31,623 nucleotides of DNA from a virus, in the IMG/VR virus record IMGVR_UViG_3300035701_000175, positions 1-31,623 of that record. One strand, 5' to 3'. Below the pieces are notes generated by a model. It did not search any database. It was not told the DNA's origin and saw only the letters and a program-made list of their open reading frames with translations. Each line of letters starts with the position of its first letter. Positions within the stretch are counted from its first letter, which is position 1. Both the position numbers and the translations under genes were made by a program. Below are positions 13,485 through 31,607 of this stretch, in pieces.

Positions 13485-14170
13485 TTTTTCACCTTAACCT
13501 TTTCTTTCTTCTTTAAATATTTTGCGAACTCAGGGATTATATCTGCCCAATATTCCTTGGTAGACATCATCTTTTCAAGTGAACGTCTAGATCTTATAAC
13601 TTCGTTTTCAATCTTATCTATATTCATTAAAGTTTTATTTAATGATTTAATTGTTCCTGTTAATCCTCTATCTATTTCTAGTAAATCTCTCTTTGAAGGA
13701 AGATCTGAAAATATATTTTCGGCAGCAGTAATCCAATCTTCGTCATCTATCGTAGGTTTGTCAATATAAATCACCAACCATCCGCCTGATCTTCCTTCTT
13801 GATACCATTTTTCTATGGGATACTTCGTTTCAAGTTCATCCATAAAATTGCTCAGCTGTAATTGTATTTCTTCCCAATACAAGTGGTCAAATGACTCTGG
13901 ATATTCTCCACCAAAAAAATCGCTTAACTCTGATGGAAGACTTAAACTTCTCATTTTAATATCTATATCAAAAGAACCCTCATCTCCATGACCACCGGAC
14001 AAGGCTTCTTCCATATCTTCTACAAGTTGCCTTGCTGTATCTATTTTTGGTTCCATAACGTCGTATATTGGCTTTAGTTCACCAAGTTTTTTATCTTTGG
14101 CAACTTCATGTTCTGCTGAAGACATAGGTTTGAACAATGTTTCTTGTTCTAATAATTTACTGAGTTTCAC
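13481..14170 (-). CDS. Motif-bearing protein with LFKPM element, 229 aa
   Basis: GTG start (14170) with AGAGGA 8 nt upstream, overlapping the acyl carrier gene by 14 nt. The N-terminus MKLSKLLEQE leads directly into TLFKPMSSAEHE, a diverged copy of the D-[IL]-F-x-P-M motif found in the right-hand genes (Thr replaces Asp). Residues 50-130 contain an acidic GDEGSFDIDIKM strand and a WYQEGRSGGWLVIYID segment, possibly an alpha/beta domain. The C-terminal 70 residues are helical and basic at the end. No known family. The leader and motif place it in the same putative packaged group. Confidence 0.65.
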   Translation of the reverse strand: MKLSKLLEQETLFKPMSSAEHEVAKDKKLGELKPIYDVMEPKIDTARQLVEDMEEALSGGHGDEGSFDIDIKMRSLSLPSELSDFFGGEYPESFDHLYWEEIQLQLSNFMDELETKYPIEKWYQEGRSGGWLVIYIDKPTIDDEDWITAAENIFSDLPSKRDLLEIDRGLTGTIKSLNKTLMNIDKIENEVIRSRRSLEKMMSTKEYWADIIPEFAKYLKKKEKVKVKK

Positions 14171-14414
14171 CTATTTTTCCTCTGACGCACTCGACTATTT
14201 CACTTACTGTTTTAATCTTCTCAACTTCTTGATCTTCTATACTTATACTGAATACTTCTTCTAGTTTTAATACTATTGTTACAGCGTCTAATGAGTCTGT
14301 TCCTAAATCATCTTGAAGATTGTCTTCAATATTAATTTTATGATCAAGCATGCCTAAGCTTCCGTACAATTCTTCTCCAATAATATTTATAATCTTTTCT
14401 TCTAATTTACCCAT
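14157..14414 (-). CDS. acp: Acyl carrier protein
   Basis: 85 aa with ATG at 14414 (a TTG extension exists but is not preferred). Clear ACP: four-helix pattern, acidic, with the phosphopantetheine attachment serine Ser41 in the classic DLGTDSLDAV motif, followed by helix II LKLEEVFSISIED and a conserved ...IKTVSEIVECV helix. Bacterial AcpP carries growing acyl chains and also binds non-biosynthetic partners. The phage copy is embedded between structural-type genes with 8-nt and 14-nt overlaps, and no other fatty-acid gene is visible here. It may recruit a host enzyme, supply lipid modification or act as a protein adaptor; this is not resolved by sequence. Confidence 0.93.
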   Translation of the reverse strand: MGKLEEKIINIIGEELYGSLGMLDHKINIEDNLQDDLGTDSLDAVTIVLKLEEVFSISIEDQEVEKIKTVSEIVECVRGKIGETQ

Positions 14415-17400
14415 TTTGCTGTAAACCAACTTGAGTCGTAGGATTTGGCGGAGTTTGTGGATTTGCTGGCATCTTCTTCAGATATCCAGGCTGGGCGAAT
14501 GCTGCTTCTTTACCATCGTCAAATTTCACCTTTACTCCAGAAGCGTCAATAGCAATTACGACTCCCTGCTTATTGTTATAACTCGACATCACATCTTGAG
14601 TAGGAACTCCGCTAACTGATATTCTGTCATTAGCTTGGACAGGTATAGATTGTTCTTCAATTGCTATATTTAATGCTTCTTTTATTGATTTGCTCCAAGT
14701 CCTATCATATTCTTTTTGAGCTTTCTTATAGTCTGATGTTGATTTTGCTTTATCATATACTTTATTCACTTTTTTTGCTCTCTTTCTAATTTCTTTGGAA
14801 GTAAGTTCCTGCTCCCTAAATAATCCTATTTCTTCGTCTTTAAAATTAAATTCCGCTTGTTTCTCGGCTTTCCTCTTAGGAGGTCTTGTAAACGTTTTAT
14901 CTGCCCATTTTTTAGTAATATCGTAGGCTTTATCCGAAGACTTTGTCCTATCGTAAATTGTCTTATAATACCCTTGAATTTTCTTTTTGATTGTAGCTCT
15001 TTCTTCGTCTGAAAGGCCTGCCACATTTATAAAGTCGTCTACTAGAGGTTCAACTCCCTTATCGCTTCCGTCAGAAAGCTCTTCTCTGACTACCTGCCCT
15101 CCTGCTAATTTAGGAGGTTCTATACCCATTCCAGAAACAGGAGCTTGAGGATTAAAATCTTCGTCTTTTACTTCTTTTCCCACAGCTCTTAAAGCTCTTC
15201 TAAGATCAAAATCAGAAAATCTTCCGAATGCTTTATTCTTTACATAAACCAAAATTTTGGAAGAATGTTCCCAGTCATTTGTCGATATGTCGTCTAACTT
15301 AGCTCCAAAATTTATCAGTTTCTGGATGAATGAAAAAGCGTTCTTTTGAAGACTTGTATCTACATCGTTAATTGATTTAATTGTATACTTATTTGATGAC
15401 CATTTATCCTGGAACTTCCTTTTCAAATTGTCCAAGGTTTCTTTCTTCATTTCTTTTATCATTTCTGGCTTAAATCCTGTAAGCTTCTTGAAATCTTGTA
15501 AAAGAGATTCATTTACTTTACTTTCATCAACGTGCAATTCAGAAACGTAATCTCCAACCTCAGATTCAAATTGTTTCCATCTTTCAGGTCCTAAAAACTG
15601 CTTGAATTCTTCTGCAGCATATTCCTTGTCATCTTCAAGAGAAGTTATAGAATCTATCGTATAATCTTCTATATAATAATTACCCTGATGCTGGGTACCA
15701 AACTCATGAGAAAAACTTGTATCTTCATAACCTGTCGAGATGTCTGTTATTATAACGATATACTCTTTTCCTTCAAATTTTACGTCTACGTCTCTATCAT
15801 TATCCGAAGGAGGATAACCATGCTTCTCGTAATAATCTTCTTCTCTATATTCCATAGAATCTTCTTCAGTTTCAGAAATAGGAAAGCTCATTTTAACTTT
15901 TTCCTTGCTTAAATAATATTTTTTGTAGCTTTGCATAACGTATTCTAAAGCTTGTTTCCATTTATCTATCGTATCTAAAAGATTAAATTTCTTTACAACA
16001 TGAGGCATAGGAGAGCTGCCGTAGTATCCATGAGACAATTTCCTTATGTATCCGTTACTGTAAATTGTATAATCGTGCTTCTTATATTTTAATGCTACTT
16101 GATTTCTTCTCTTCTGTAAATCTGACGTTACGTCTTTAAACCCCCAACTAATCATAGCCTTATATTCTGGAAGATTTATAATTTCTTCACGGGAAACTGT
16201 AATAGGAAATTTCTTTTTAAATGCTTCTTTTCTTGCTACATCTATTCCTGTCCTTTCTTCTCTTCCCATCGGTTTGAATATAGAACTTTCGCTCCAACCG
16301 CACTCAGGACATTCTCCATTTTTAAGTTTTACTTCGCAATCTGGGCATTCGGCAGTAGAAACAGCTTCTGCAAGTTGGTCTGGCGTCTCTTCTTTATTAT
16401 ATTCAGCTTCAGCAGCCTCAGCTTGTTTTATCAATCTATTCATAATCATTTTACCTGAGCCAGAATCAGCAAGAACACTTTTTATCTCGTCAGGAGATAA
16501 TTTAACAGCATATCTCTGAACTAAAGGAGTTAAATGTTGTTTCTCTGGAGGAATGTGAGAAATAAACTTTTTGAATACTCCAGGGCCAGCGAGCATATCA
16601 CGTGTCTCGTTACCTAATTCTTCTCCTCCCATTTCAGGTTCATGTTCTTTATATAGAGAAAGCCACTCATATATTCCTTTGACAACCTCATGAACTAGAT
16701 AGGGGAACGTAACAGCACGAGCTTTAATGACGTATGTATCACCTTCAGGTTTTACTTCCTCTGAGCCAGCTTTAGCTTCACCAGAAGCAGCAGCCATCTT
16801 TTCAATACCGTCAGGAGTAATCCAATATCCTATTTGAGCAAGAGAAGCAAGAATCCCGTAAATTGTCGGGAGTGTCTTATCTATGCCTTCAAGCTTTTCT
16901 TTAATCATATTGAATAAATATAGTTTATGTGAAGCTCCGCCTGTAGTTAATAAATTAGCGAAACGTCTTTGAATTGCTTCGACAGAAGTAGCTTCAATAT
17001 CAGACATTTGATCGAAAATATCTTGGTTAATCTCTTCAGCTTGAGAAAGTTCACCTTCCTCAGGTTCATTTGAAACATGTGCGGATAAATCAGGTTCTTC
17101 TAATTTTGCGTCTATCTTTAAATCACCTGAAGTTATCGCTTTTTCTACCATCTTGAATTCTGCAGATTGTAATGGAAGCATAACAGCCCATTCTTCAAAA
17201 TGACGCTTGTGCCTCTGTTCGATACTTCTAGCTTTCTGTAACGACTGCATCAATAATTGAATTAAAGAAGGAAGATTACTTTCTTGGACCTTCATCCCGG
17301 TATAAGACTCTATTTTTGAGATCAAGTCTGTATACTCGTTGCTAGTTATCTTAGTCAAATAAGATTCTTCTGTATCGCTAAGTTGAGGCAGTAATTTATT

Positions 17401-17472
17401 AAGAGTCGGATCACCTTTTTTAATCCAGTCTAATTTTGAAGGATGGACGATATCTGGTTTAAACTCTGCCAT
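14407..17472 (-). CDS. Large multidomain protein with zinc ribbon and motif copy, 1021 aa
   Basis: Residues 1-350 are mainly helical, with FPYLVHEVVKGIYEWLSLY near 256-274. Residues 376-391 form a zinc ribbon (CPDC ... CPEC). Immediately after, at 397-402, is a diverged motif copy SIFKPMGREE (Ser for Asp). Residues 430-520 hold INLPEYKAMISWGF and YTIYSNGYIRKLS ... VVKKFNLLDT, a domain shared with the 393-aa protein at 25017-26198. Residues 560-660 look alpha/beta, 665-770 helical, 820-940 highly basic and coiled, and 945-1000 an SH3-like beta segment (NDRISVSGV ... GVKVKFDDGKEAAF). AGGAG lies 8 nt before the ATG. Function unknown; probably a virion-associated multidomain protein. Confidence 0.65.
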   Translation of the reverse strand: MAEFKPDIVHPSKLDWIKKGDPTLNKLLPQLSDTEESYLTKITSNEYTDLISKIESYTGMKVQESNLPSLIQLLMQSLQKARSIEQRHKRHFEEWAVMLPLQSAEFKMVEKAITSGDLKIDAKLEEPDLSAHVSNEPEEGELSQAEEINQDIFDQMSDIEATSVEAIQRRFANLLTTGGASHKLYLFNMIKEKLEGIDKTLPTIYGILASLAQIGYWITPDGIEKMAAASGEAKAGSEEVKPEGDTYVIKARAVTFPYLVHEVVKGIYEWLSLYKEHEPEMGGEELGNETRDMLAGPGVFKKFISHIPPEKQHLTPLVQRYAVKLSPDEIKSVLADSGSGKMIMNRLIKQAEAAEAEYNKEETPDQLAEAVSTAECPDCEVKLKNGECPECGWSESSIFKPMGREERTGIDVARKEAFKKKFPITVSREEIINLPEYKAMISWGFKDVTSDLQKRRNQVALKYKKHDYTIYSNGYIRKLSHGYYGSSPMPHVVKKFNLLDTIDKWKQALEYVMQSYKKYYLSKEKVKMSFPISETEEDSMEYREEDYYEKHGYPPSDNDRDVDVKFEGKEYIVIITDISTGYEDTSFSHEFGTQHQGNYYIEDYTIDSITSLEDDKEYAAEEFKQFLGPERWKQFESEVGDYVSELHVDESKVNESLLQDFKKLTGFKPEMIKEMKKETLDNLKRKFQDKWSSNKYTIKSINDVDTSLQKNAFSFIQKLINFGAKLDDISTNDWEHSSKILVYVKNKAFGRFSDFDLRRALRAVGKEVKDEDFNPQAPVSGMGIEPPKLAGGQVVREELSDGSDKGVEPLVDDFINVAGLSDEERATIKKKIQGYYKTIYDRTKSSDKAYDITKKWADKTFTRPPKRKAEKQAEFNFKDEEIGLFREQELTSKEIRKRAKKVNKVYDKAKSTSDYKKAQKEYDRTWSKSIKEALNIAIEEQSIPVQANDRISVSGVPTQDVMSSYNNKQGVVIAIDASGVKVKFDDGKEAAFAQPGYLKKMPANPQTPPNPTTQVGLQQNG

Positions 17473-18604
17473 TTGTACGGCTCCTCATAAAAAGGTCTAT
17501 ATCTCTTTTTGCTTTTGGTTTAGGCTGAATTCCAGGAGTTGGACTTAAAGGAGATCTTTTAGGTTTAGTAGTAGGCTCAGTTGTAGGTTCTGTTTCGGTT
17601 CCAGGTTCTGCTGTAGTCGTCTGTTCCTCTTCTATATCATCGTCTCCTTCTTCCCCTACTTCGTCTGCTCCAATTATTTCATTTGCAAGTTGTTTAATAA
17701 TTTCTGCTTTATCTCCTAAATTAATCCCTTTCTCGTCTGCCCAACTAAGAACTAAATCGTCATCTATCGGATCTAATCTACCTGACTCGTCGTAATAGTC
17801 TACTAATTTTCCTGCTAAGGCGTAATCTTCGTCAGATTGTTCTAATTTAATTCCTTTTTCCTCTAGCAATCTAGTTATCGATTCTAATTTAACTTTCTCA
17901 GGAAGCAAGTCTGCATATTGAGGATCTTTGGTAATTCGCTTTCTTAATTTACCTAAAGACCTGCTAATCATTTTGTTTATTCCCATCCTAGTCATTCCTG
18001 TAATCATCGAAATTTCTTCTACAGAAAGAGGTTGATTTTCTGAAAGTTTCTTAGCGATCGTTATAATTTTCAAATCTCTTGTATTAGGAACATAATCTGG
18101 ATTATTAAAGTACCTTTCAATCCTATCAAGCTCCTTGTTAATATTTAATGCTTTGTCGAATCCTTTAGTAGTTAAAAAGTCTTCTTTAATCCCAGAAAGA
18201 TTTTTGAAATCTGGCAAAATAGATTCAGGAACTCCAAAATTTTTCATTTTCTTTTCTCCCAATTTTTCTTTTTGCGGAACAGGCATAGCAAAATCTATTG
18301 ATTCATCTCGATAAGAGACAGGATAATCAAGTCCATGTTCATCGATAAAATCTTCAGCTGCTTCTCTAGTCGAAAAATAACGAGGTTCTTGTCTAGTTTC
18401 ATCTGCACTCGTTGCGATCCAAGCTCTGAAAGCAAAGTCTCCATCTTCAAGAGGCTCATTCGTATCGAAATATTCATATTGTCCTGCTGAATCATAACCT
18501 ATTTGAACTTCTTCTATATCGTATTTTTTACGTCTTTCTTTATCTTTTTTTTCAGCAGATTTTAATTCATTACCTTTCATAGGCTTAAAAATATCTTCTT
18601 TCAC
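17459..18604 (-). CDS. Motif-bearing HTH-like protein with Thr/Pro tail, 381 aa
   Basis: GTG start at 18604 in a TAAGTG junction, with GGGGAG 9 nt upstream. The protein opens directly with MKEDIFKPMKGNELKSAEKK, one intact copy of the recurring motif at residues 4-9. Residues 35-110 form a small domain with an EPRYFSTREAAEDFIDEHG segment. Residues 165-225 contain an HTH-like stretch (LSVEEISMITGMTRMGINKM) preceded by DYVPNTRDLKIITIAKKL; the same arrangement recurs in the 885-aa protein encoded just upstream. Residues 320-365 are an acidic then Thr/Glu/Pro-rich linker. DNA binding is suggested by the HTH-like spacing but not proven. Confidence 0.65.
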   Translation of the reverse strand: MKEDIFKPMKGNELKSAEKKDKERRKKYDIEEVQIGYDSAGQYEYFDTNEPLEDGDFAFRAWIATSADETRQEPRYFSTREAAEDFIDEHGLDYPVSYRDESIDFAMPVPQKEKLGEKKMKNFGVPESILPDFKNLSGIKEDFLTTKGFDKALNINKELDRIERYFNNPDYVPNTRDLKIITIAKKLSENQPLSVEEISMITGMTRMGINKMISRSLGKLRKRITKDPQYADLLPEKVKLESITRLLEEKGIKLEQSDEDYALAGKLVDYYDESGRLDPIDDDLVLSWADEKGINLGDKAEIIKQLANEIIGADEVGEEGDDDIEEEQTTTAEPGTETEPTTEPTTKPKRSPLSPTPGIQPKPKAKRDIDLFMRSRTNGRV

Positions 18605-21262
18605 TTATTTCAACTCCCCTAATTCAGGTCCTACTGATTTAATAAACTTCTTACCTAATTTGTAGGCTGCTATACCGACTAACGCTGCGGCACCTAGCCC
18701 TACAAGTTTCTCTGTATCTGTCTTTTCAATCTTCTTTACTAGATTAGTTACATCTTTACCTTTATCTTCTTCTACAGTCTTTCTTTCCTCAATCTTTTTT
18801 CCACACTTTTTACATTGGTACCATTCATCTTGATAATCTTCTGAATGTTGCAAGTTTACTTCTTTAGATCCGCATCCAGGGCAAGTTTCAAGATCTTCTA
18901 TAGTCGTTTCTTCTAGATCAGCATCAAAATCTTGAGTTTCCTCATCTTCCTCTAATGGTGCCCCATATTTCGCCCATTCTTTACCTTGAGGAGTCTTCTT
19001 AAAAGATTGCTTTGCTTTAGACGTAGCCTTGTATGCTCCCATTCTTGTCATGTTGGTTAAATAAGCTAATTCTTCGTCAGAAAATTCTATTGATTTACCT
19101 TCATCTTTATCAAGCATCTTGTAGAAGATGCTTTGGATAATAAGATCCTTTTTAGTAGGGATCCAATCAGGATCATTCATATCTTTATTAATTCTTGCTG
19201 TTTCTCTATTTATAAGCTTTCTTGCTTCAATATAGCCGATTTTATTTAAATCTGAAGCTTCATTTACTTCGTCTGCTTCAAAATGTTCCATCCAATAAAC
19301 TAATGCCTCTCGAGCTTCTTGTTTAGATAAGTTAAAATCTCTTTCAATATAAGCTCCGGCACCAAACATATTGGTTGCTCCAGACGTTCTAAGATCATTC
19401 AAATAACTAGAAATTTCTGCTTGACTAACTCCTCCTGAATACGTTTTATTGGAGTCAGTTCCCTCTTCTATATTACCCTTGTTCCAACCGCTTACTGACA
19501 TTGGTTTATGGTCGCAACCATGATATTCATTATCACATTGTTTACACGAAACTATCCAATCTCCAGTATAGTAACCTTTAAAGTTCCCAGAAGTCGCTTT
19601 TTTTCCAGTATTATATATTTTTGCTTCACCGCCACATTTCTTACATTTTGCAAGCTTTTCATTTAATTCATTATCATCTTGGCATCCACATTGACAATTT
19701 GGATCGGTTCCTTTACAACATTCTCCAGTCTTGCATGAAGAACATTTTTTCTTAGGATGAGCTCCCCATATACTTCCTGAAAACTCGTTTGGTTTAATTT
19801 TAGTTTCTGCTTCATCAGCCTCAGGAGGTAAATCTGAAGGAACATCTTCTTCTGGAGATTCTAAAGGCTCTTTAGTCACTAATGTCTTCTCAGAATATAA
19901 TATACTCTCTATTTTCTTTTTTACTTCTTCTAGATTGTCTCCGAATACTTTACTTATATATTCAGCAGTATTATCAATATCGGACTGACTTACTTTACCA
20001 GACCTCTTTAACAGAACATTGTTTACTATAGATTCTATATGGTCTTCGCCTTCTTTTAGATTCATTGAGCACTCGTACAGCTGTTGGTTAAGAGTCTTAG
20101 ATGAGAGCATATAAAAATCTTCTTTAATTCCTTCGTATAAGCCGCCTTGGTATCTTTGAGTTAAAGGATCTTGTTCTACGTATTCATTCTTAGGAAGATC
20201 TTCATAAGTCTCAACTTCTTCCATATCATCGTCTGCCCCAATCATTTTTCTTGAACCAGCACCTGGCAATTTTCCGATTCCATGCTTGGCCATAAGTTCA
20301 TTAATTGCTACCATCATATCTATAATATTGGCATCACGATATTGTCTTACAAATTTTGAAGCTTCTTTCTGAGGAACTCCAAATTGAGAAAGCAACTGTA
20401 CTGTTCCTACATCAATTTTTTTTCTCATTTCTGGGGTTTCAGATTTTGCTATGATTTCTGCTGCTTGTTGCGGGGATGTACCGAAAAGTTTTGTAAGTAT
20501 AGCTGTAAGAGCTTTTTTGTTTATATCTGTTCTGACTGCTGGTAATTGATCTACTATTTCAGGTTCATGGACAGGAGTTAACTGTTCGAATAGACTTCTT
20601 GCTTCGTCCATCGGTAAATCTTCATAAGCTTTGATCTCTTTCTTTAATTTAAGACCAGTTTTACCTGTAGTTTCTTCACCTAATTTTTTTTTTTCTCTTC
20701 CTTCTTTAATTAATTCTGAAGGTTTAAATGGCAATCTTTCCTTAGTAATATTATTCCTTGCGATATATTTGTCGCAAACTTTATCCCTTCCTAAAACTAT
20801 ATAGTGATTTCCTTTATCATCTCTAGCCTTATCTCCTATATCGAACAAAGGTTTAGATACAACAGAAGGAATTTCTATTTCTACAGGTTTAGGTTGAACT
20901 ATTGGTTTAGGCTCTGCCGGTTTAGGCTCTACCGGTTTAGGCTCTACCGGTTTAGGCTCTCTTAAAATTGGCCTTCTAATTGGAGACTCCGTTAACAACC
21001 CGACTTTAGTTTTATTTTCAAGAAGAATATTCTTACTTCTTATGAAATGAGCTTCTGAAATAAATAATTGATTTGCATTTCTCTCATCACAGTAAGCTTT
21101 ACATATATTCTTGACGTCGTGAACAGATTCTGACCAATCTCTTTCGTTCACGCATAAAATCTTGTTTTCTGCTAATTGTTTTTTGATATAAAGAATAGAA
21201 CCGTGGGAATGGGAATAAGTCTTATCATAGACTATAGTGCCTAAGTACAATTGATCTTTCAT
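18605..21262 (-). CDS. Multidomain zinc-ribbon protein with C-terminal membrane helix, 885 aa
   Basis: Residues 101-125 are an EPKPV/A repeat linker. Residues 137-185 form a beta-rich segment (FDIGDKARDDKGNHYIVLGRD). Residues 250-330 are helical. Residues 507-527 are Cys-rich (CSSC, CC, CQCGC). Residues 540-595 fit a Lar-like zinc ribbon (CKKCGGEAKIY ... WIVSCKQC ... SGWNKG). Residues 612-660 contain SYLNDLRTSGATNMFGAGAY and EAREALVYWMEHF, a phage domain I recall but cannot name. Residues 698-757 hold the HTH-like segment shared with the 381-aa protein. Residues 794-822 form another ribbon (CPGC ... CKKC). Residues 853-869 are a probable membrane helix. AAAGAGGA precedes the ATG. Overall function unknown. 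Confidence 0.65.
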   Translation of the reverse strand: MKDQLYLGTIVYDKTYSHSHGSILYIKKQLAENKILCVNERDWSESVHDVKNICKAYCDERNANQLFISEAHFIRSKNILLENKTKVGLLTESPIRRPILREPKPVEPKPVEPKPAEPKPIVQPKPVEIEIPSVVSKPLFDIGDKARDDKGNHYIVLGRDKVCDKYIARNNITKERLPFKPSELIKEGREKKKLGEETTGKTGLKLKKEIKAYEDLPMDEARSLFEQLTPVHEPEIVDQLPAVRTDINKKALTAILTKLFGTSPQQAAEIIAKSETPEMRKKIDVGTVQLLSQFGVPQKEASKFVRQYRDANIIDMMVAINELMAKHGIGKLPGAGSRKMIGADDDMEEVETYEDLPKNEYVEQDPLTQRYQGGLYEGIKEDFYMLSSKTLNQQLYECSMNLKEGEDHIESIVNNVLLKRSGKVSQSDIDNTAEYISKVFGDNLEEVKKKIESILYSEKTLVTKEPLESPEEDVPSDLPPEADEAETKIKPNEFSGSIWGAHPKKKCSSCKTGECCKGTDPNCQCGCQDDNELNEKLAKCKKCGGEAKIYNTGKKATSGNFKGYYTGDWIVSCKQCDNEYHGCDHKPMSVSGWNKGNIEEGTDSNKTYSGGVSQAEISSYLNDLRTSGATNMFGAGAYIERDFNLSKQEAREALVYWMEHFEADEVNEASDLNKIGYIEARKLINRETARINKDMNDPDWIPTKKDLIIQSIFYKMLDKDEGKSIEFSDEELAYLTNMTRMGAYKATSKAKQSFKKTPQGKEWAKYGAPLEEDEETQDFDADLEETTIEDLETCPGCGSKEVNLQHSEDYQDEWYQCKKCGKKIEERKTVEEDKGKDVTNLVKKIEKTDTEKLVGLGAAALVGIAAYKLGKKFIKSVGPELGELK
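20904..20963 (-). repeat. 15-bp tandem repeat, four units
   Basis: Four units of GGTTTAGGCTCTACC (plus strand), units two and three identical and the last diverging at its end, encode the Glu-Pro-Lys-Pro-Val/Ala linker of the 885-aa protein. Confidence 0.9.
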
Positions 21263-21280
21263 CTAGTTATCCTCTTTTTA

Positions 21281-21296: not shown

Positions 21297-21300
21297 GACT

Positions 21301-23301: not shown

Positions 23302-24399
23302 CTAATCTGGGTTATAACCATCATCATCATCAATATGCTTTACAGCAATTTTTATTGCTTTGTCTATTATATTTAATGCTCTTTGTTTGCTGACATCATT
23401 AAACTTCCTTTCATCATCACCTCGTATTTCTTCGCCTCTAAATTGGAAACATACGACGAGATGGGAGCGGCCTTCAATCCAAACGTTATTTTTCTTTTCC
23501 CAAGCGTCGAATAGCCCTTGTCTTTGGAGTCTTTTCCACCAATCTGATCCTTGCCTTCCGTTATATAACGCTTCGCCCACTTTATTATTTAATAAAACAT
23601 CAACGTATATATTTCTTACAGAATCACCTTCATATTTTAATATCTTATATTCTCCAAGTTTGCTGTTTATATCTTTTTTTTCTCTAGAAGACATCGGTTT
23701 AAATATGTCTTCATTTAAAAATCTTCCTAGACTATTAGAAAAAAGTTGGTTGACAACATTGAAAAATGTTTTGCTCCAAGGTTTATCTTGTATTCCAAGT
23801 TCTTTAACCTTTTCTTTTAAAGGTTTTAAACCAAGATAATTTGAATATCTGTTGTATCTAATTAATAAATTGCAGATATCCATAGATCTGTCTGCTACGT
23901 CAGTCTGATACGCGTTTCTATCCAATTCGTCAATAAGGTCCTTTATTTCTTCATCACCAGCCCAAATTTTCCTTCTTGCGACTTCTACATCTGCAGTTAT
24001 TCTTTCTTCGGATCCCATCGGTTTGAATATATCTTCTGCAAGTTGTTTTGCCATCGATACTATATCTTCTATAATTTTCTCTGCTTGCTCTCTAGTAAAA
24101 TTAGCATTAAATTTAAACCAGAAATAAGTCATTATATTGTCAACATCTCCAAACCTCATCCATATAAGACCATTTCCTTTATACTTTTTATATATTGCTT
24201 CCTTCACCATTATATCTTGGAGCCTGTCTCCTATCGTGCGAGTGAACCTTACCTTTAGGAACAGACTTCCGTCTCTTTCGTTACCGTAATCGACAACCCT
24301 AAAATGCTTCACACGCTTCTCTGCTTCTTCCCTTTCCTTAGAACCCATGGGTTGGAACAAGTCTTCCCATAATCTTTCTACCTTTAGTTGTAGTTTCAT
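23302..24399 (-). CDS. Three-module motif protein, 365 aa
   Basis: Three motif copies at residues 13 (DLFQPMGSKE), 123 (DIFKPMGSEE) and 231 (DIFKPMSSRE) divide the protein into modules of about 110, 108 and 135 residues, each preceded by hydrophobic-x-Glu (LWE, LAE, LNE). Modules 1 and 3 resemble each other (strand of FRVVDYGNE / YKILKYEGD type, a GLIW/GLFD turn, aromatic strands FWFKF / VVCFQF, then a C-terminal helix). Module 2 is helical and resembles the 105-aa protein encoded next to it. ATGA overlap with the upstream gene; TAG end abuts the CCA enzyme ATG. No database family recognised. Confidence 0.75.
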   Translation of the reverse strand: MKLQLKVERLWEDLFQPMGSKEREEAEKRVKHFRVVDYGNERDGSLFLKVRFTRTIGDRLQDIMVKEAIYKKYKGNGLIWMRFGDVDNIMTYFWFKFNANFTREQAEKIIEDIVSMAKQLAEDIFKPMGSEERITADVEVARRKIWAGDEEIKDLIDELDRNAYQTDVADRSMDICNLLIRYNRYSNYLGLKPLKEKVKELGIQDKPWSKTFFNVVNQLFSNSLGRFLNEDIFKPMSSREKKDINSKLGEYKILKYEGDSVRNIYVDVLLNNKVGEALYNGRQGSDWWKRLQRQGLFDAWEKKNNVWIEGRSHLVVCFQFRGEEIRGDDERKFNDVSKQRALNIIDKAIKIAVKHIDDDDGYNPD

Positions 24400-24713
24400 A
24401 ATCCCAAGTCAAACCCGTGTATTTGCTGCTCAGACCACATCTGAAGTTCTGGTATATTGAATTCTTTCATTAATTTCTTTACTTGCTTATATCCAAATTT
24501 CCTTGCCACTCTCTCAAGTATCCAAGCAGCAAATCTTTTTGTTTCGGTGCTGGCATACTCGTGACCTTCTGGAACTCTAATAGGTTCTAATTCCTTCTTA
24601 AAATCATCTAACTCTTTCTTCCTCAATTCAATATTTGTTCTATTCTGTTCAGGGCTAGACATCGGCTTGAATATGTCTTCCAACATTCTGTCTAACTCTG
24701 ATTTTAATTTCAT
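24396..24713 (-). CDS. Single-module motif protein, 105 aa
   Basis: MKLKSELDRMLE then DIFKPMSSPEQ from residue 13. This is the simplest example of the family: leader helix, hydrophobic-x-Glu, motif, one helical module. The module (FAAWILERVARKFGYKQVKKLMKEFNI ... MWSEQ) parallels the middle module of the 365-aa protein (NYLGLKPLKEKVKELGI ... PWSK). ATGA overlaps on both sides suggest translational coupling with the membrane protein upstream. Function unknown. Confidence 0.72.
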   Translation of the reverse strand: MKLKSELDRMLEDIFKPMSSPEQNRTNIELRKKELDDFKKELEPIRVPEGHEYASTETKRFAAWILERVARKFGYKQVKKLMKEFNIPELQMWSEQQIHGFDLGL

Positions 24714-25006
24714 TTAAACATCTTCATCCCTAAGTGTATAATCAACGCTGTCCACATCAAGGCCATTGATGCTAGTATAGCGATTGCCTTTACCTTGCTT
24801 TTTTCTGCATAGGCCCAGAATTGCTGGGATACTGTCTTACCAGTAAACTTGACGTATAAAACCTCTGTCAACCCAAATATCAAGTTGAATGCTAAGAATA
24901 CATAAAACAACGGCCACATCTGCAATACTGCCATTAATACCATGGGAAGAAACATACATAGTATAAATATTATTTCCCCTACTGAAGTTCCACCTTTATT
25001 ATTCAT
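24710..25006 (-). CDS. Three-helix membrane protein, 98 aa
   Basis: Hydrophobic segments at about 9-28 (VGEIIFILCMFLPMVLMAVL), 30-48 (MWPLFYVFLAFNLIFGLTE) and 72-93 (AIAILASMALMWTALIIHLG) predict three membrane helices, with a basic loop (KFTGKTV ... EKSKVK) between the second and third. This is one of the best ribosome sites in the right half (AAGGAG, 6 nt from ATG). Topology could suit a holin or other envelope protein, but neither size nor sequence proves it. It lacks the recurring leader and motif of its neighbours, so it is not part of that protein family. Confidence 0.75.
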   Translation of the reverse strand: MNNKGGTSVGEIIFILCMFLPMVLMAVLQMWPLFYVFLAFNLIFGLTEVLYVKFTGKTVSQQFWAYAEKSKVKAIAILASMALMWTALIIHLGMKMFK

Positions 25007-25016
25007 GTTTTTCTCC

Positions 25017-26198
25017 TTACCATCCTAATTCTTTTAATCTCTTTTTTTGCTCTTTATTAGGGACATCACTTTTTTTAATCCTGCTGCTATATAATCTGAA
25101 AGGATCCCCCCAAGCCTGTCTAATCTCGTTATTAACCCATATATTATAATGTTCTGTGCTATAAGTACTGTTTACAAGTTTAGTTGTAGAATGAATACCC
25201 AAATATTTGAGCTTATCCTCTATAACCTTTACCCAATAATCTGAAGGTTTATCGCTTAATTTAATAATTCTCCAATAATCAGTACCGATATCTTTTTCAA
25301 GTTTCCATCCCATAGATTTGAGAAAATCTCTCATAACTTTTATTTGTTCTGGAGACAACGTTCCTTTATGACTTGGAAAATACAGCCAAACGTCATTCAA
25401 AAAGTTTTTATCTATTTCTGATTTTTCTACGTCAGACATCGGCTTGAAGATGTCTTCTGTCATCACGTTAGTCGGATCAAAGAGGAATCTTATTCCTCCA
25501 CGCTTCTTTACGATTTCTGGACTTCTATTCGATAAATTGAAATCTGTTATTAATCTTTTATATTCTGGTAAATTTATTATCTCTTTATAAGAAGGAAGAG
25601 AAGACAAGAAAGCTTTATGTTTTGCATCTTGTTTGGCAATAAACTTTTTATATTCATCATTCTTAGCCTGAACTTTTATTGCCCAAGGAGAATTAGGATA
25701 ATCTTTAGTGAGTGCATCTAACTCTTTTACATCATACTTTCTAGGTTGACGTGGATAGCTGTGATTATCAATATAATTTATCATACTCTCTGCTCTTTTT
25801 TCGCGGTGATATTCTAAACTCGACTCTCTGTCTTCCTCTGTAAGTCTATATCTGTCTCTTAATTCAGGTGATAAACTATTTTCTATATCATTCTTATATC
25901 TTTTATATTTGTTTACTCTCTTGTTAAGATAATCATACAGCCAATTAAACATTATAGAATAATCTTCTATACTTTTCACAGGTTCGAATTTCTTCATTAC
26001 AAAAGGTTGGTGTTTCGTAACGTCTGCTCTAATATAGCCGTTAGAGTAGATTTGATAATATTTGGGCGTTTTAAGCCACTTCATCGCTTCTCTTTTATTT
26101 TCAAAAGATCCAATCGTCTCCACATCCTTTAATTCCTTGCCGCTCATCGGTTGGAAGATGTCTTCAAATAATCTATTTATCTTATATTCTAATTTCAT
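25017..26198 (-). CDS. Two-module motif protein, 393 aa
   Basis: Motif copies at residue 13 (DIFQPMSGKE, after NRLFE) and 249 (DIFKPMSDVE, after VMTE). Module 1 (236 residues) contains YYQIYSNGYIRADV ... FVMKKFEPVKSIEDY and INLPEYKRLITDF. Both elements also occur in the 1021-aa protein, although there their order is reversed. Module 2 has the recurring alpha/beta pattern: strand VWLYFPS, helix ending SMGWKL, aromatic YWRIIKL, then a helix DYWVKVIEDKLKYLGI. It overlaps the upstream gene by 17 nt. Function unknown. Confidence 0.74.
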   Translation of the reverse strand: MKLEYKINRLFEDIFQPMSGKELKDVETIGSFENKREAMKWLKTPKYYQIYSNGYIRADVTKHQPFVMKKFEPVKSIEDYSIMFNWLYDYLNKRVNKYKRYKNDIENSLSPELRDRYRLTEEDRESSLEYHREKRAESMINYIDNHSYPRQPRKYDVKELDALTKDYPNSPWAIKVQAKNDEYKKFIAKQDAKHKAFLSSLPSYKEIINLPEYKRLITDFNLSNRSPEIVKKRGGIRFLFDPTNVMTEDIFKPMSDVEKSEIDKNFLNDVWLYFPSHKGTLSPEQIKVMRDFLKSMGWKLEKDIGTDYWRIIKLSDKPSDYWVKVIEDKLKYLGIHSTTKLVNSTYSTEHYNIWVNNEIRQAWGDPFRLYSSRIKKSDVPNKEQKKRLKELGW

Positions 26199-27138
26199 CT
26201 TTAAGCTTTTTCTCTTTAATATACGTAAATTCTATATTTGTCGGACTAAATTTAAAAAACTCTTGTCTTACTACTGATATTCCCCCTAGCGGAGAAGTTC
26301 TTTGCACATCTTCGAAAGAATTAAATTTTTTTAATATCCCCGTAATTCCGTTAACATAACTCTGCCATTTTGGTATTTTTTTATTTGTAAGTTCATACCA
26401 TACACGGTTTTGCCAAGGATATGTTGGATCTTTTGACTTAATAAAACCGCTATCTATCATAAAAGCGTTGATTGAAGACAGAATACGACTACCAATATAC
26501 GAAGGAACTCCGACTTGAAGTGTTTCAGTTACCTCGAATTTCGCTTCAACGTCCTTCAATTCCCGGCCTTTCATTGGCTTGAATAAGTCCTCAGATACTT
26601 GGCCTGTTATTTTATATTTAGCTAATTTCTTACTTTCATCTTTCTTAACATCTTCTGACAACCATTTCTTTCTGATTTTATCCTTGAACCATCTGAAGAG
26701 TATCCCAAATTTACTATCGTAAGGCCTCTCCGCTTTATAACCTTTAATCATATAACCGGCATGAAAATTATCTCCTTCCCAACCACTTTCATATGTTATC
26801 GGAGGAGCTTCTAATACCCCTAAATCTTTTAATTTTTTTTCTATCGCTCTTAAATATTTCTGAGGATCTTCAAAATGGTCTTTCTTAATATGGTACCAAT
26901 CCCATCCTTGATTCTCTTCCAATTGTGAAAACATTGCTTCAGCCATCCTGAATCCAAGTTTAATTAACAGATCCTGAACAGCCGACCCTACTTTATTGTC
27001 TAAATTGTCCTGAATCCCGACAGTTATTCCTTCTACATATGTAAATTGTGCCTCATATTCCTTATCGGCTTCTGCCTGTTCTGGACCAGACATAGGAGCA
27101 AAAATATCTTCTAATAATCTATCTAAATTAAAATTCAT
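26182..27138 (-). CDS. Two-module motif protein, 318 aa
   Basis: Leader MNFNLDRLLE, then DIFAPMSGPEQ from residue 11, and a second copy DLFKPMKGRE at 184 after QVSE. Both modules follow the same layout: a strand ending in Gly (ITVGIQ / LQVGVP), a helix leading to GF (LIKLGFRM / FMIDSGFIK), Trp/Tyr-rich strands (GWDWYHI / NRVWYEL) and a helix that ends the module core (YLRAIEKKLKDLGV / SYVNGITGILKKF). ACGAGGAAGAG precedes the ATG; ATGA overlap with the upstream hydrolase gene. No known family. Confidence 0.74.
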   Translation of the reverse strand: MNFNLDRLLEDIFAPMSGPEQAEADKEYEAQFTYVEGITVGIQDNLDNKVGSAVQDLLIKLGFRMAEAMFSQLEENQGWDWYHIKKDHFEDPQKYLRAIEKKLKDLGVLEAPPITYESGWEGDNFHAGYMIKGYKAERPYDSKFGILFRWFKDKIRKKWLSEDVKKDESKKLAKYKITGQVSEDLFKPMKGRELKDVEAKFEVTETLQVGVPSYIGSRILSSINAFMIDSGFIKSKDPTYPWQNRVWYELTNKKIPKWQSYVNGITGILKKFNSFEDVQRTSPLGGISVVRQEFFKFSPTNIEFTYIKEKKLKDEIRI

Positions 27139-27866
27139 CTCTTCCTCGTGATCTTTATATACAACTGTACAAGTAGAGCCGGTATAAAAAACAGTATTGG
27201 AGTTATAATCGATATGAATATATAACCAACATACATTAACGTTCTCTTTATCCTATAAACAATTTTACTGTCTTTATCAGGTTCAAGGTATAACGCTACC
27301 TTCTCAAATATCAACTCGTTGCAAAAATCAATTGGCCTTATCTTAGAAGGAGCTCTCTCAAAACAATAGACATTTGCGTACCTCAATCCAGTTGCAATAA
27401 GTTCCGCACAGAAATAGGCATCCTTTACGTTGTAGCATGAATCGTCGGTATCCCTCCCAAGCAAGAAGTGCAGACTATTCGGGAATATAGAATAGAATAT
27501 AAAATAGATAAATGCTCCAAAATCGTATTCTTTTCCTTTTAGATTGGTAAGAACAGTTATAACCTTCTCTACATCTTCAGACTTGGCGAATCTGTGTCTA
27601 AGCACTAAAAAATTGCAATAACAATTTAAATATGATTCTGAAAAACTTGATTCTGTTATACCTTCTGGATTGGCCTCAATAATACGATCGTTACCTAGAT
27701 ATAGAACAGAATGCTCCCAACCCCTATTACCATACCCAACCTTATAGAAATTAGATATTTTGATAATAGGAGTATACCAGGAAGGACTGTCTACTTCATT
27801 AGTAAGTATAATGTCTCCTGGCTTTAATATGTAAGGCAATTGATTTTTTAATATTAGTTGCTGCAT
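27135..27866 (-). CDS. Membrane-anchored YiiX/NlpC-like permuted papain-fold hydrolase, 243 aa
   Basis: Features of the permuted NlpC/P60 (YiiX/YaeF) group: KPGDIILTNE at the start, His52 in WEHSVLYLG, an IIEANPEG element, GKEYDFGAF, and catalytic Cys153 in YFCAELIATG. The His-before-Cys order marks the permuted class, which acts as cysteine hydrolases on amide or ester (peptide or acyl) bonds. Residues 211-237 form a strong membrane helix or helical pair, followed by a basic end. It could act at the envelope during lysis or entry, or modify lipids; the sequence does not decide. No motif leader. AAGGTGG lies 9 nt before the ATG. Confidence 0.82.
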   Translation of the reverse strand: MQQLILKNQLPYILKPGDIILTNEVDSPSWYTPIIKISNFYKVGYGNRGWEHSVLYLGNDRIIEANPEGITESSFSESYLNCYCNFLVLRHRFAKSEDVEKVITVLTNLKGKEYDFGAFIYFIFYSIFPNSLHFLLGRDTDDSCYNVKDAYFCAELIATGLRYANVYCFERAPSKIRPIDFCNELIFEKVALYLEPDKDSKIVYRIKRTLMYVGYIFISIITPILFFIPALLVQLYIKITRKR

Positions 27867-27868
27867 AT

Positions 27869-28111
27869 TTATAAACCACCTTGCCGATATATTCCTCTAC
27901 TTTTCATCGGCTTAAATATATCATCTTTAACCAGTACACTCCTTCTCCAAGTAGAAGCTTCTTTCTCAGCACAATCAGGGCATAATATCCCAGAATAATC
28001 AGACGGCTCTCTAGCTTTGTCCCAAGAAACCCAATTGCCACATTTGGAGCAACTTGATTCAGTTAAACCTTCAAATAATTTATCTATCTTCTGTTTAAGC
28101 CTCATCGTCAT
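27869..28111 (-). CDS. Zinc-ribbon protein with C-terminal motif, 80 aa
   Basis: Leader MTMRLKQKIDKLFE, then a zinc ribbon (Cys21-x-x-Cys24 and Cys44-x-x-Cys47 in ILCPDC), then at residues 64-69 an intact DIFKPM followed by only 11 more residues. The motif here ends the protein rather than opening a module. It may be a truncated or split module string, or evidence that the peptide itself is functional. ATG at 28111 has AAAGGA close by; the third codon ATG is an alternative start with better spacing. It overlaps the upstream gene by 17 nt. Confidence 0.7.
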   Translation of the reverse strand: MTMRLKQKIDKLFEGLTESSCSKCGNWVSWDKAREPSDYSGILCPDCAEKEASTWRRSVLVKDDIFKPMKSRGIYRQGGL

Positions 28112-28433
28112 ATCTTCCTTTAGTAATCATTATAGAATCTCTATGTATTTTTAAATGTTCATACCCAGCCATATAAGCTGCCAAAGAATATCCTGGAGGG
28201 GTGTAGTCTATAAAGAAATGAGGTGAACCATGTCCTCCAAAGTCGACTGGATACTTTATATCAGTTGTCACAAATCCAGCTTTTTGCAATTCATCACGGC
28301 ATTTCTGAAGTATAGTCGTATCCAGATAAGGATACTTCTTGTTTATACCTGCTATTTCAGGTTTTCCCATGGGCTTGAACAGGTCTTCTTTAATCGGTTC
28401 AAACAATTTTTCTATCTTATTTTTTCTTCTCAC
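28095..28433 (-). CDS. Single-module motif protein, 112 aa (GTG start)
   Basis: The frame could be read from a TTG at 28460, but the GTG at 28433 gives MRRKNKIEKLFE, the same leader as its neighbours, with GGGG 6 nt upstream. After PIKE comes DLFKPMGKPEIAGINKKY at residue 17. The module core has a helix ILQKCRDELQKAGF, strand VTTDIKYPVDFGG, HFFIDYTPPG and a last helix. The start lies inside the end of the lipoprotein gene (17-nt overlap). Function unknown. Confidence 0.68.
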   Translation of the reverse strand: MRRKNKIEKLFEPIKEDLFKPMGKPEIAGINKKYPYLDTTILQKCRDELQKAGFVTTDIKYPVDFGGHGSPHFFIDYTPPGYSLAAYMAGYEHLKIHRDSIMITKGRYDDEA

Positions 28434-28581
28434 ATTGATCCCCGTTACATACTGCTCCAAGTCCTAACATAGTCCTCTGAAATATCCCAGAATCTCCACA
28501 TAGTAAATAGTCATATGACGCGCATCCTAACATATTATTTAATAATAAGAGTAAAGCTGCTATCTTTATAATCAATCTCAT
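28417..28581 (-). CDS. Small lipoprotein, 54 aa
   Basis: A short gene easily missed by length cut-offs. ATG 28581 is in an ATGA overlap with the 409-aa gene, with AGAGGAAG about 6 nt upstream. The product opens with a signal peptide (MRLIIKIAALLLLLNNMLGC): a basic residue, a leucine-rich core and a lipobox MLGC, so Cys20 would be lipidated after cleavage. The mature part is about 35 residues with three more cysteines (28, 45, 50) and a KKK end. Phage lipoproteins of this size include Rz1-type outer-membrane spanin subunits and superinfection-exclusion proteins; no Rz partner is seen beside it. It implies a diderm-type host envelope. Confidence 0.75.
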   Translation of the reverse strand: MRLIIKIAALLLLLNNMLGCASYDYLLCGDSGIFQRTMLGLGAVCNGDQCEKKK

Positions 28582-29807
28582 TGTTTCTTCCTCTCTTCTT
28601 TTTTAGCCCCCATAGGCTTGAATATATCTTCTGTCATCTTCCTTCTTTTGTCTCTCCATACCTCTATGGTTACGCGGTCGCTCTTGTCATTCGCCACAAT
28701 ATGCTGCCAAGCGTCGTTTACTTTTGCTTCACCTTGCCAAGGCAAAGTCATTCTATTTATTACTCCTACAAGCCAATGAAGATACTTCGACTTAGCATTT
28801 AAAGTAGACAGGCGGTTAGTAGACGGCTCAGTCTTCTCCCACACGTGGGAAAAATTGCTGAATTTAGGAGTAAATCCATTTTCCTTGAAAGCCTTCCACA
28901 ACTTCTTCCTCTGCTTATCAGTAAACTTATTCTCTATAGATATAGACATTTGAATTGTATCTGTTGTCTCTATCTGCTTATCTGCAAGCTCTTGTTCGGG
29001 TTTAGACATGGGTTTAAATAAATCTTCTTCTATCTGTGTATATTTAACCATATCATTGAACCGTGGCCTTGAAAACCATGATAGTGCCTTAGGAGAAGAC
29101 CATGTAACTATCTTTATAAATCTTTCCTTTTCTCTGTCTACCCACCTTCTACATTTTTCTTTGTCATCTGTCCGTCCAGACCATTCATTAAACCTTTCTT
29201 CAAAAAAATTGTCTATGGCTTCTTTTGGATTGACGTTGTCAACTATCATCTTAGATACCTTCATCAAGAAACTCTCAGGGAATCCTATAGTCGAATCCCA
29301 AAATGTAAAGAAGTTTTTCTTCATATCTTTATATAATTTCGATACTTCGTTATTCTTGTCAAGCTCTTCCCCGCCCATCGGTTTAAATATATCTTCTCTA
29401 ATTACTTCTCTTAAATAGTCTATATAAATTAATCCTTCTCCATAAATTGATTCGTCGCCTGGACCATAATACTTTTTCCACCTGAGCGATACCAGCTGTG
29501 GACGTCCTGGCCTAGATCTCCATTGCTCTTTTACTTCTATCTTTTCTGATTCAAGGAAGCTCGTCATCTTACGTACTTCTTCCATAAAATCTCCAGCAGA
29601 TCCTTTTTTGGCATAATCATAAGCGTAATCTTTTCTTAATTCATAGCCATTTTTCTTCAGATAGCCGTCTATAAACCAGTCAGGTAACGAGTATATGCCT
29701 CCATCTACCTTTATCAGCTCTTCCATTCTCTTGTCTACATCCTTTTGTTCAGGTTCTGACATGGGCTGGAATATATCTTCTAATAATCTGTCTAGATATT
29801 TAATCAT
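28578..29807 (-). CDS. Four-motif modular protein, 409 aa
   Basis: Motif copies start at residues 11 (DIFQPMSEPEQ), 139 (DIFKPMGGEE), 262 (DLFKPMSKPEQ) and 394 (DIFKPMGAKKEE), each preceded by hydrophobic-x-Glu (LLE, IRE, IEE, MTE). Cutting at each would give products of 128, 123, 132 and 16 residues. Module 3 shows the alpha/beta pattern (IQMSISI, FKENGFTP, SHVWEK, YLHWLVGVI); module 2 is more helical. The last copy is a C-terminal stub with no module after it. ATGA overlaps on both sides; the ribosome site is weak. No known family. Confidence 0.75.
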   Translation of the reverse strand: MIKYLDRLLEDIFQPMSEPEQKDVDKRMEELIKVDGGIYSLPDWFIDGYLKKNGYELRKDYAYDYAKKGSAGDFMEEVRKMTSFLESEKIEVKEQWRSRPGRPQLVSLRWKKYYGPGDESIYGEGLIYIDYLREVIREDIFKPMGGEELDKNNEVSKLYKDMKKNFFTFWDSTIGFPESFLMKVSKMIVDNVNPKEAIDNFFEERFNEWSGRTDDKEKCRRWVDREKERFIKIVTWSSPKALSWFSRPRFNDMVKYTQIEEDLFKPMSKPEQELADKQIETTDTIQMSISIENKFTDKQRKKLWKAFKENGFTPKFSNFSHVWEKTEPSTNRLSTLNAKSKYLHWLVGVINRMTLPWQGEAKVNDAWQHIVANDKSDRVTIEVWRDKRRKMTEDIFKPMGAKKEERKKQ

Positions 29808-30673
29808 TTCTTTATCTTTTCCCTGCTAACATTAAGGTATATGATAGTGGATCCTTTATCTCCTGAAACTACTACTCCGAATATATCAGAAGACTTTATA
29901 TCAACTCCTATTCCCTCTAATATGTCGGTAATAAACTTTATGTACTTCAGTTGAGTCTGCCTCTTTGATTCATAGTAATTCTGCACGTATCCTTGCTGGC
30001 CGAAAGGTTGCTTCTTACTTTCTATTTTTTCTCTTTTGTCGTACCAGAAATTTCTATTCAAGTAACCTGCTTCCCTGAATCCGTTAGCTAATAACTTGTC
30101 ATGGAAGCTAGACATTTGTTCCTTGCTTAAGTTATTGGCGGCAGGTATATTAATTGCAATATTATCGACATATGTCATCTGAGAATCTACAATTTCTTGT
30201 TCTGGATCAGACATCGGTTTGAATATATCTTCTGAAAAAATAGCCTTCCTTATTTTATGCAATACTATTCCTATTTCAGGAGATACTACATCGCTGGTTA
30301 TACCAATAGTATAAATATCATCTATGCCGCCTGGATAATAATGGTCTTTAGGAACCTCTCCAGTAAATTCCCAAACTTTCTTCTTAATCCTATCTTTAAT
30401 ATAAGCTAGATCTTTATTCTTAGGATTCTTTAATCCTGATTTATACCATGTCGTCCCTTCACCGCGATGGTCACTCTTAAACCCCTCTGCTGCCAGCATC
30501 TCTATAAGTTTAATCCACATCCCTTTTCTTCTTATACTGTCGTCTAACCCCACATTAAGAGTAGTCTTGAACATTATATCCAATTTCTTCTCTACATTCT
30601 TCTGCTCAGGAGAAGACATTGGAGCAAATATATCTTCCAATAATCTGTCTATATCTTTATATAAAATTTCCAT
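29804..30673 (-). CDS. Two-module motif protein, 289 aa
   Basis: Leader MEILYKDIDRLLE, then DIFAPMSSPEQ from residue 14, and a second copy DIFKPMSDPEQ at 149 after IFSE. Both modules show the family pattern: strand LNVGLDD / IAINIPA, helix to GF (LAAEGFKS / LLANGFRE), aromatic strand TTWYKSG / NFWYDKR, helix LAYIKDRI / YIKFITDIL, then a final strand. The two halves are clearly related to each other and to those in the 409- and 318-aa proteins. It overlaps the upstream gene by 17 nt. Confidence 0.75.
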   Translation of the reverse strand: MEILYKDIDRLLEDIFAPMSSPEQKNVEKKLDIMFKTTLNVGLDDSIRRKGMWIKLIEMLAAEGFKSDHRGEGTTWYKSGLKNPKNKDLAYIKDRIKKKVWEFTGEVPKDHYYPGGIDDIYTIGITSDVVSPEIGIVLHKIRKAIFSEDIFKPMSDPEQEIVDSQMTYVDNIAINIPAANNLSKEQMSSFHDKLLANGFREAGYLNRNFWYDKREKIESKKQPFGQQGYVQNYYESKRQTQLKYIKFITDILEGIGVDIKSSDIFGVVVSGDKGSTIIYLNVSREKIKK

Positions 30674-31607
30674 ATATTGTTACTTCTGTTTGCTGCCACT
30701 TATACCGTTCGTCGATCATAGTAAACATGGCTACGTGTCTACCTTTTATTTTAATTATTTCCAGTTTCATGAATACAGCATCTTTTACTCCAAACTCACC
30801 TTCATATTCTTTAGGCTCAAAGTCTTCTATATCGTTGACAATATCTCCATACGGTTCAGGTGGTAACATTACTTTTACTACAGGGCCTAGATACTGTTCT
30901 ATTCTAGTATACACTTTTGTAAATTCTTCTTTTATTTCTGCTCTCATACTTCCAATATTCCTTCTTCCAGGCATAGATATTTCAGCCCTTGGAACTATAA
31001 TACTCTTAAGTATATTCTTTAATGATACGGTCTTTGCTGATTTAAATTCTTCAGACAAGCCTGAATACAACTTTTCTTCAGAATGTTTCTTTACATCTTC
31101 CAACTCTTCTCCACGCATTGGAGAGAATAGATCTTCTTCCAATCTTATGCCTTTCTTGTTCCTCTGGGTCGTTATAATTATTCTTCTAGGCATTAAAGTT
31201 CCAGGCTCATCAAACTCGACTACTCTCTGCCCCAATCCAGGAGAACTAGAAGCTATATAATCTCTGCTTAATGTAGGAGTCTTCTTAAACCATTTTTTAA
31301 TCGTGACGGCATGTGCGAATCTTATATCTGACAGTATATTCGGATCTTCTGTATACTTTATATCTTTCCTATATAAGGTACTGTCATCATTACCTATGTA
31401 TTTACTTTTAAACCTTTTAAATCCTATTTCTACAAGCTTTTTATCTATTTCAGCCATCTGCTTCCATCCAGTAAAGTTGTCTACTCTTGCCGTCAATATC
31501 ATCTTGAATAGTTTATTAACGTCTGCTTGTTCAGGACCAGACATTGGCCTAAATATGTCTTCTGCCAATCTTAACTCTTTCTTCATTCTGATTTTTTTAG
31601 ATATCAT
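30657..31607 (-). CDS. Two-module motif protein, 316 aa (start uncertain)
   Basis: The frame stays open to the window edge. ATG 31607 is chosen, with ATG 31586 (MKKELRLAE) as an equally good alternative that gives a leader more like the neighbours; neither has a visible ribosome site. Motif copies at residue 17 (DIFRPMSGPEQ, after LAE) and 159 (DLFSPMRGEE, after LEE). Module 1 shows the strand-helix-GF-aromatic layout (ILTARVD, LVEIGFKRF, STLYRKD). Module 2 has a basic helix region and strands (YLGPVVKVML, VFMKLEIIKIKG). Function unknown. Confidence 0.7.
   Translation of the reverse strand: MISKKIRMKKELRLAEDIFRPMSGPEQADVNKLFKMILTARVDNFTGWKQMAEIDKKLVEIGFKRFKSKYIGNDDSTLYRKDIKYTEDPNILSDIRFAHAVTIKKWFKKTPTLSRDYIASSSPGLGQRVVEFDEPGTLMPRRIIITTQRNKKGIRLEEDLFSPMRGEELEDVKKHSEEKLYSGLSEEFKSAKTVSLKNILKSIIVPRAEISMPGRRNIGSMRAEIKEEFTKVYTRIEQYLGPVVKVMLPPEPYGDIVNDIEDFEPKEYEGEFGVKDAVFMKLEIIKIKGRHVAMFTMIDERYKWQQTEVTIYGNFI

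Follow-up and report, generated by a model that had tools for sequence, protein, structure and literature searches.

Gene content of the window

The IMG/VR virus record IMGVR_UViG_3300035701_000175, whose 31,623 bases constitute the window analyzed here, carries a cluster of T4-type head genes that is continuous, in the same direction, with a block of genes marked by a recurring short peptide, E-D-[IL]-F-x-P-M, which we discuss below as a candidate docking tag. The recognised genes are all on the minus strand; starting at the low end, they encode the N-terminus of a gp23-type major capsid protein (1-348, the gene being truncated by the contig end), a gp22-like scaffold candidate (354-1082) assigned by its position between the protease and capsid genes and with no scaffold-family match, a gp21-type prohead protease (1112-1714; phrog_207, 8e-44; T4 gp21 structure 5jbl, 3.6e-9), a gp20-type portal (5377-7284; phrog_213, 2.8e-75) and a T4-type large terminase (7926-9602; phrog_2, 1.6e-39), followed by an upstream block of small and medium-sized genes. 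The peptide had been expected to lie near head genes in a genome with a gp21-like protease, and the tagged block indeed runs into the terminase, portal, protease and gp23 genes. Alignment of the protease to T4 gp21 places Ser125 within the conserved sequence SRGLG and His69 in a conserved block ahead of it, where the catalytic serine and histidine of this family are expected.

A scripted scan of the window with the relaxed pattern [EDS]-[DTS]-[IL]-F-x-P-M retrieves 22 copies in 13 minus-strand genes between 14123 and 31562, of which 19 fit the strict form ED[IL]FxPM, in agreement with the number and placement (at N-termini, internally and twice at C-termini) given in a preliminary description of this DNA. 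Residue-shuffled versions of the proteins contain 0.0025 relaxed and 0 strict copies per set. Ten copies lie at or before residue 25 and the other 12 beyond residue 30, either internally, with a spacing of 108-236 residues, or C-terminally.

At the high-coordinate end, gene 30657-31607 carries an N-terminal EDIFRPM (31542-31562) and an internal EDLFSPM (31116-31136, residue 158 of 316), and gene 29804-30673 an N-terminal EDIFAPM (30617-30637) and an internal EDIFKPM (30212-30232, residue 148 of 289). Four copies punctuate gene 28578-29807: EDIFQPM at the N-terminus (29760-29780), EDIFKPM and EDLFKPM internally (29376-29396 and 29007-29027, residues 138 and 261 of 409) and EDIFKPM at the C-terminus (28611-28631, residue 393). 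The product of gene 28095-28460 has EDLFKPM near its N-terminus (28368-28388, residue 25 of 121), while the second C-terminal copy, DDIFKPM (27905-27925, residue 63 of 80), belongs to a four-cysteine protein (27869-28111). N-terminal and internal copies again alternate in gene 26182-27138 (EDIFAPM, 27091-27111; EDLFKPM, 26572-26592, residue 183 of 318) and gene 25017-26198 (EDIFQPM, 26145-26165; EDIFKPM, 25437-25457, residue 248 of 393). Gene 24396-24713 has a single N-terminal EDIFKPM (24660-24680), and gene 23302-24399 an N-terminal EDLFQPM (24346-24366) followed by two internal EDIFKPM copies (24016-24036 and 23692-23712, residues 122 and 230 of 365). EDLFHPM (22927-22947) stands at residue 119 of 666 in the product of a CCA-adding enzyme gene (21301-23301), at a fusion joint, and EDIFKPM (18578-18598) at residue 3 of 381 in that of gene 17459-18604, which has a GTG start. 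The last two copies are diverged: SSIFKPM (16267-16287) at residue 396 of 1021 in gene 14407-17472, and ETLFKPM (14123-14143) at the N-terminus of gene 13481-14170.

Conservation of the peptide and its two halves

The 19 strict copies are spelled by 18 distinct 21-base sequences, which use all four proline codons, both phenylalanine codons, both aspartate codons and seven isoleucine or leucine codons. It is thus the peptide and not the DNA that is conserved, as had been argued from synonymous codon changes, and a DNA-level repeat is ruled out as the origin of the motif.

Aligning the copies extends the consensus to Phi-x-[ED]-D-[IL]-F-x-P-M-[SG]-x-x-E, where Phi is hydrophobic. The phenylalanine, proline and methionine are invariant in all 22 copies, a glutamate follows four positions past the methionine in 20, and the first acidic residue is glutamate in 20. 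The residue two before that acidic position (P3, if a cut were to follow the acidic residue as P1) is hydrophobic in 19 of the 22, as compared to 25% at the remaining E-x sites in these proteins (p ~2e-9), and is strictly leucine or isoleucine in 12.

A short helix usually comes before the N-terminal copies. Indeed, a segment of the form [ILV]-[DNE]-x-[LIM]-[LFW]-E occurs within the first 30 residues of 10 window proteins, against 0.4 expected from internal stretches, and in 6 proteins of the relatives described below, against 0.2 expected. The gene preceding the terminase gene in the order above (7298-7888) begins with such a segment (IIDKLDHLFEQ, with KIDKIFEQ in its ortholog in the relative L131) in the absence of any FxPM. 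These counts therefore divide the tag into halves that can be separated. One is an N-terminal segment, helical to judge by its pattern and closing with Phi-x-E; the other is the D-[IL]-F-x-P-M core, which also occurs alone at internal and C-terminal sites.

The module following the internal copy of gene 29804-30673, modelled from nine aligned window sequences at a predicted local distance difference test (pLDDT) score of 75, shows a helix, an extended EDIFKPM, a second helix and a beta-alpha domain. The model, of modest confidence, suggests a helix-loop-helix shape for the tag; a ferredoxin-like arrangement of the module would be a guess. Foldseek comparison of the model to the PDB and BFVD returned nothing significant.

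A clade-specific motif

No Pfam or PHROGs family gives a significant match covering the motif and most of the tagged proteins match nothing in either collection, consistent with the earlier view that the peptide links otherwise unrelated proteins and with its not being a fixed part of an annotated domain family. Nor is it mentioned in the families, literature and structures that we searched. Scans of IMG/VR, with both the DNA pattern and the back-translated peptide, and of GTDB genomes yield chance-level matches only, and thus no scatter of copies through unrelated genomes.

Relatives were found only through a portal search, because their motif ends in alanine and not methionine. The resulting clade comprises one locus identical to the window over the overlap (L010), two with portals 80% identical to that of the window (L009 and L130) and two at 72-74% (L131 and L132). 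In L131 and L132 the motif has drifted to [ED]-D-[IV]-F-K-P-A, and five copies are present (LNDDIFKPAG, IQDDIFKPAS, LNDDVFKPAD, IHEDVFKPAD and MLEDIFKPAS). They are N-terminal in two gene families, each represented in both phages, apart from one internal site in L132, and all are encoded around the terminase, portal and protease genes. By reading, P3 is hydrophobic in all five, and P1 is aspartate in three. Gene 13481-14170 has an ortholog in L132 (L132:15719, 33% identity) that has the motif in the equivalent position (ETLFKPMSSAE against EDIFKPASTAD), the core reading DDIFKPA in L131 and EDIFKPA in L132, even though the gene in the window and that in L132 occupy different positions within the head cluster. 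Gene 11276-12331 of the window also has an apparent diverged copy near its N-terminus, LFRPIFDPMDEFF, for which L131 and L132 keep LFRPIYDPIDEFF. Another 151 loci, T4-type with few exceptions and totalling 2.06 Mb, gave zero copies on six-frame scanning, and a terminase-based scan added no further clade members; as judged from these sequences, the motif is clade-specific.

Tagged joints in fusions and insertions

Comparison to the relatives reveals where the copies sit. There, a CCA-adding enzyme of 474 residues and a 118-residue protein are encoded by separate neighbouring genes, whereas the window gene 21301-23301 is a fusion of the 118-residue protein (53% identity) and the enzyme (63%), in reversed order. 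The joint holds EDLFHPM and about 90 residues, with the motif starting 8 residues past the end of the first homology. A second case is found in L132:2702-3760, which contains an insert of about 90 residues starting at HEDVFKPAD that its L131 ortholog lacks. In gene 14407-17472, finally, the part before the SSIFKPM copy corresponds to a protein encoded separately in the relatives (48%), and the far end to part of another separately encoded relative protein (39% over 62 residues). A tagged protein encoded between those two genes (L131:1456-2205) was considered as the source of the body that follows this copy, and the comparison gave no support. Taken together, the fusion, the insert and the join indicate that the motif lies at module joints and arrives with the modules.

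A 484-kb phage with an unrelated recurring peptide

LR756508.1, an uncultured T4-type phage of 484 kilobases found via its terminase (loci L030 and L120-L129), offers a parallel. Of its 661 open reading frames, 32 start with the peptide KLRxIIREEI, and 26 of these fall in the region around the terminase, at 141-222 kb; ten further matches are internal or C-terminal. The fuller form is MKxxExKLRxIIREEI..LxE, and [LIVM]-x-E comes after the peptide in 23 of 25 inspected cases, as compared to 19% in the rest of such proteins. As in the window, a peptide recurs at N-termini, internally and at C-termini, near terminase and head genes and with Phi-x-E, while its sequence is unrelated and lacks the D-[IL]-F-x-P-M part. 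Ten of the tagged proteins were scanned and gave no convincing family match except an intein, and the literature searched does not mention the peptide. The intein, with a LAGLIDADG endonuclease, belongs to the product of an open reading frame directly after the terminase (L030:21912-23693), which also has an LRxxIRE copy near its C-terminus. Finding this arrangement again in a distant T4-type phage, built on another peptide, suggests that tag systems of this sort are specific to lineages, perhaps widespread, and have been overlooked.

Many genes near T4-type terminases (L032-L113), including those of capsid, scaffold and protease, start with M-[IK]-K-L-K-x-L-L-N-E or a similar stretch. L[LI]xE is 5-fold enriched at the N-termini of T4-type loci, a figure that we do not use as evidence because the supposed control, which itself includes T4-type contigs, showed 3.9-fold.

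A putative tag for loading the prohead

In T4, internal proteins are loaded by a capsid-targeting sequence, a 10-residue N-terminal peptide that ends in L/I-x-E, the sequence after which gp21 cleaves (PMC9026906). Residues 4 and 7 serve targeting and residues 8 and 10 cutting, so that aspartate at position 10 stops the cutting and leaves targeting unaffected (PMC9026906), and giant phages follow the same principle (PMC5694885, PMC7411985). The window resembles this system, known in T4 from IPI, IPII, IPIII and Alt, in that a short peptide is common to dissimilar proteins, hydrophobic-x-E lies just ahead of the most conserved part, a gp21-type protease is encoded and T4-type head genes are adjacent. 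It differs in its sequence, in having its core past the possible cut, in its internal and C-terminal copies, and in scale: T4 tags four proteins, while the window has 13 tagged genes, for modular proteins and an enzyme. We propose, at roughly even confidence, that the motif is a clade-specific portable docking tag that would recruit proteins to the prohead in the manner of the T4 capsid-targeting sequences.

The tag would be the linear motif Phi-x-[ED]-D-[IL]-F-x-P-[MA]-[SG]-x-x-[ED], at N-termini often preceded by an amphipathic helix K-[IL]-[DN]-x-L-[LF]-E, and could be grafted onto any module and fused to otherwise unrelated domains. A single prohead partner (core or scaffold, inner shell, or protease) may read it and bring the tagged proteins to the growing prohead, so that they would become internal or ejected components of the virion, possibly after a further step in which the prohead protease cuts at Phi-x-E↓D. 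The head as destination and such a partner are both inferred. Several observations weigh against this proposal: the linkage to head genes comes from three contigs of one clade, all of them genome fragments; the most conserved residues come after the would-be cut, and 12 copies stand inside a protein or at its C-terminus, unlike the T4 tags, which are N-terminal and removed; and the likeness to LR756508.1 is one of architecture alone. Furthermore, in the contig of L132 the CCA-adding enzyme gene adjoins a cluster of 24 transfer RNA (tRNA) genes (L155:3295-6604), which suggests work in the infected cell and not in the head. The window has no tRNA genes, and the row of tagged genes occupies that place; a single-sequence model of the enzyme was uninformative (pLDDT 37).

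The motif could instead be chiefly a gp21-type prohead protease site, Phi-x-E↓D-[IL]-F-x-P-M, with the multi-copy proteins as polyproteins that would be cut within the prohead, at each copy, into modules of about 110-240 residues, an explanation that is compatible with docking and that we consider unlikely. It accords with the specificity of T4 gp21, the hydrophobic P3 in the window and in the relatives, the encoded protease with its predicted histidine and serine kept, the position of copies where relatives have separate genes, and the [LIVM]-x-E that follows the LR756508.1 peptide. Yet the strongest conservation, D-I-F-x-P-M-S-x-x-E, lies past the cut, where T4-type cutting needs none; P1 is aspartate in three of the relatives' five copies and in one window copy, a residue that in T4 prevents cutting and not targeting; some copies begin at residue 3, where a cut would take off almost nothing; and the P3 residue, strictly leucine or isoleucine in little more than half of the window copies, may equally be part of the helix. 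We rank docking above cutting because of the conservation past the would-be cut, the many internal copies and the aspartate at P1 in several copies.

Known substrates of gp21-type proteases show the same mixture of likeness and difference. Different head proteins of SPN3US and phiKZ (gp53 and gp54 in SPN3US) have identical short N-termini, which a gp21 relative cleaves after x-x-E (PMC5694885); they are, however, paralogs, each with one N-terminal propeptide, and their motifs are AXE or SXE, with no F-x-P-M or joint copies described. The T4 core proteins gp22, gp67 and gp68 have several Phi-x-E sites per chain that gp21 cuts repeatedly (PMC9026906), but are cut into mostly discarded peptides, whereas modules follow most copies in the window. 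A more far-reaching and decidedly improbable version would make one peptide both address label and cut site: proteins differing in fold, the tRNA-repairing CCA-adding enzyme among them, would be synthesised as strings of modules that the tag brings into the prohead, that the protease separates there and that the virion carries into the next host, and other T4-type giants would do likewise with unrelated peptides.

Also unlikely is a destination other than the head, be it the tail, the baseplate or, within the infected cell, some structure made by the phage or belonging to the host. The CCA-adding enzyme, with its tRNA gene neighbours in L132, and the sigma-region-4-like protein (a weak Pfam match) would fit the cytoplasm, and the genomes are represented by partial sequence; in all three phages, however, every known copy falls in a gene block that directly adjoins the genes for terminase, portal, protease and capsid, with no tail genes recognised near the copies in these contigs. 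Very unlikely, finally, is ordinary paralogy, in which the modules would form one diverged domain family and the motif a structural hairpin, with an FxPM turn between a helix and an N-capped helix, that folding requires: PM-[SG]-x-x-E resembles a helix N-cap, the model puts motif and domain in one compact order and some modules align weakly (module 1 of gene 26182-27138 with module 2 of gene 25017-26198, E 3e-4), but leave-one-out profiles of the module bodies are not clearly above shuffled decoys and leave body homology beyond the motif unsupported, FxPM is invariant though the bodies are barely alike, the motif is joined to unrelated bodies such as the CCA enzyme fusion, and the two C-terminal copies have no following domain.

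Should the docking tag be borne out, it would matter beyond this clade. Head cargo and its selection are known for few large phages; a recognisable tag would allow cargo lists of uncultured phages to be drawn up from sequence and would supply a loading signal for engineered capsids.

Other genes of the window

The products of 17459-18604, one of the tagged genes, and 18605-21262 contain a similar helix-turn-helix-like stretch by eye, with the weak Pfam match, Sigma70_r4, in the first. Amid the tagged genes, protein 27135-27866 has a weak likeness to NlpC/P60 and C92 peptidases and a hydrophobic C-terminus. Within the head cluster, gene 1-348 includes a candidate capsid cut site, LLSE↓STSS, presumed from a by-eye comparison to T4 gp23, and the products of 1876-2676 and 2679-5357 share a similar C-x-C...C-x-x-L near their C-termini, a SWIM-like zinc finger by eye that is matched in the relatives. 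Between two tagged genes, at 14157-14429, the phage encodes an acyl carrier protein that has a DSL serine (PF00550, 1.2e-10).

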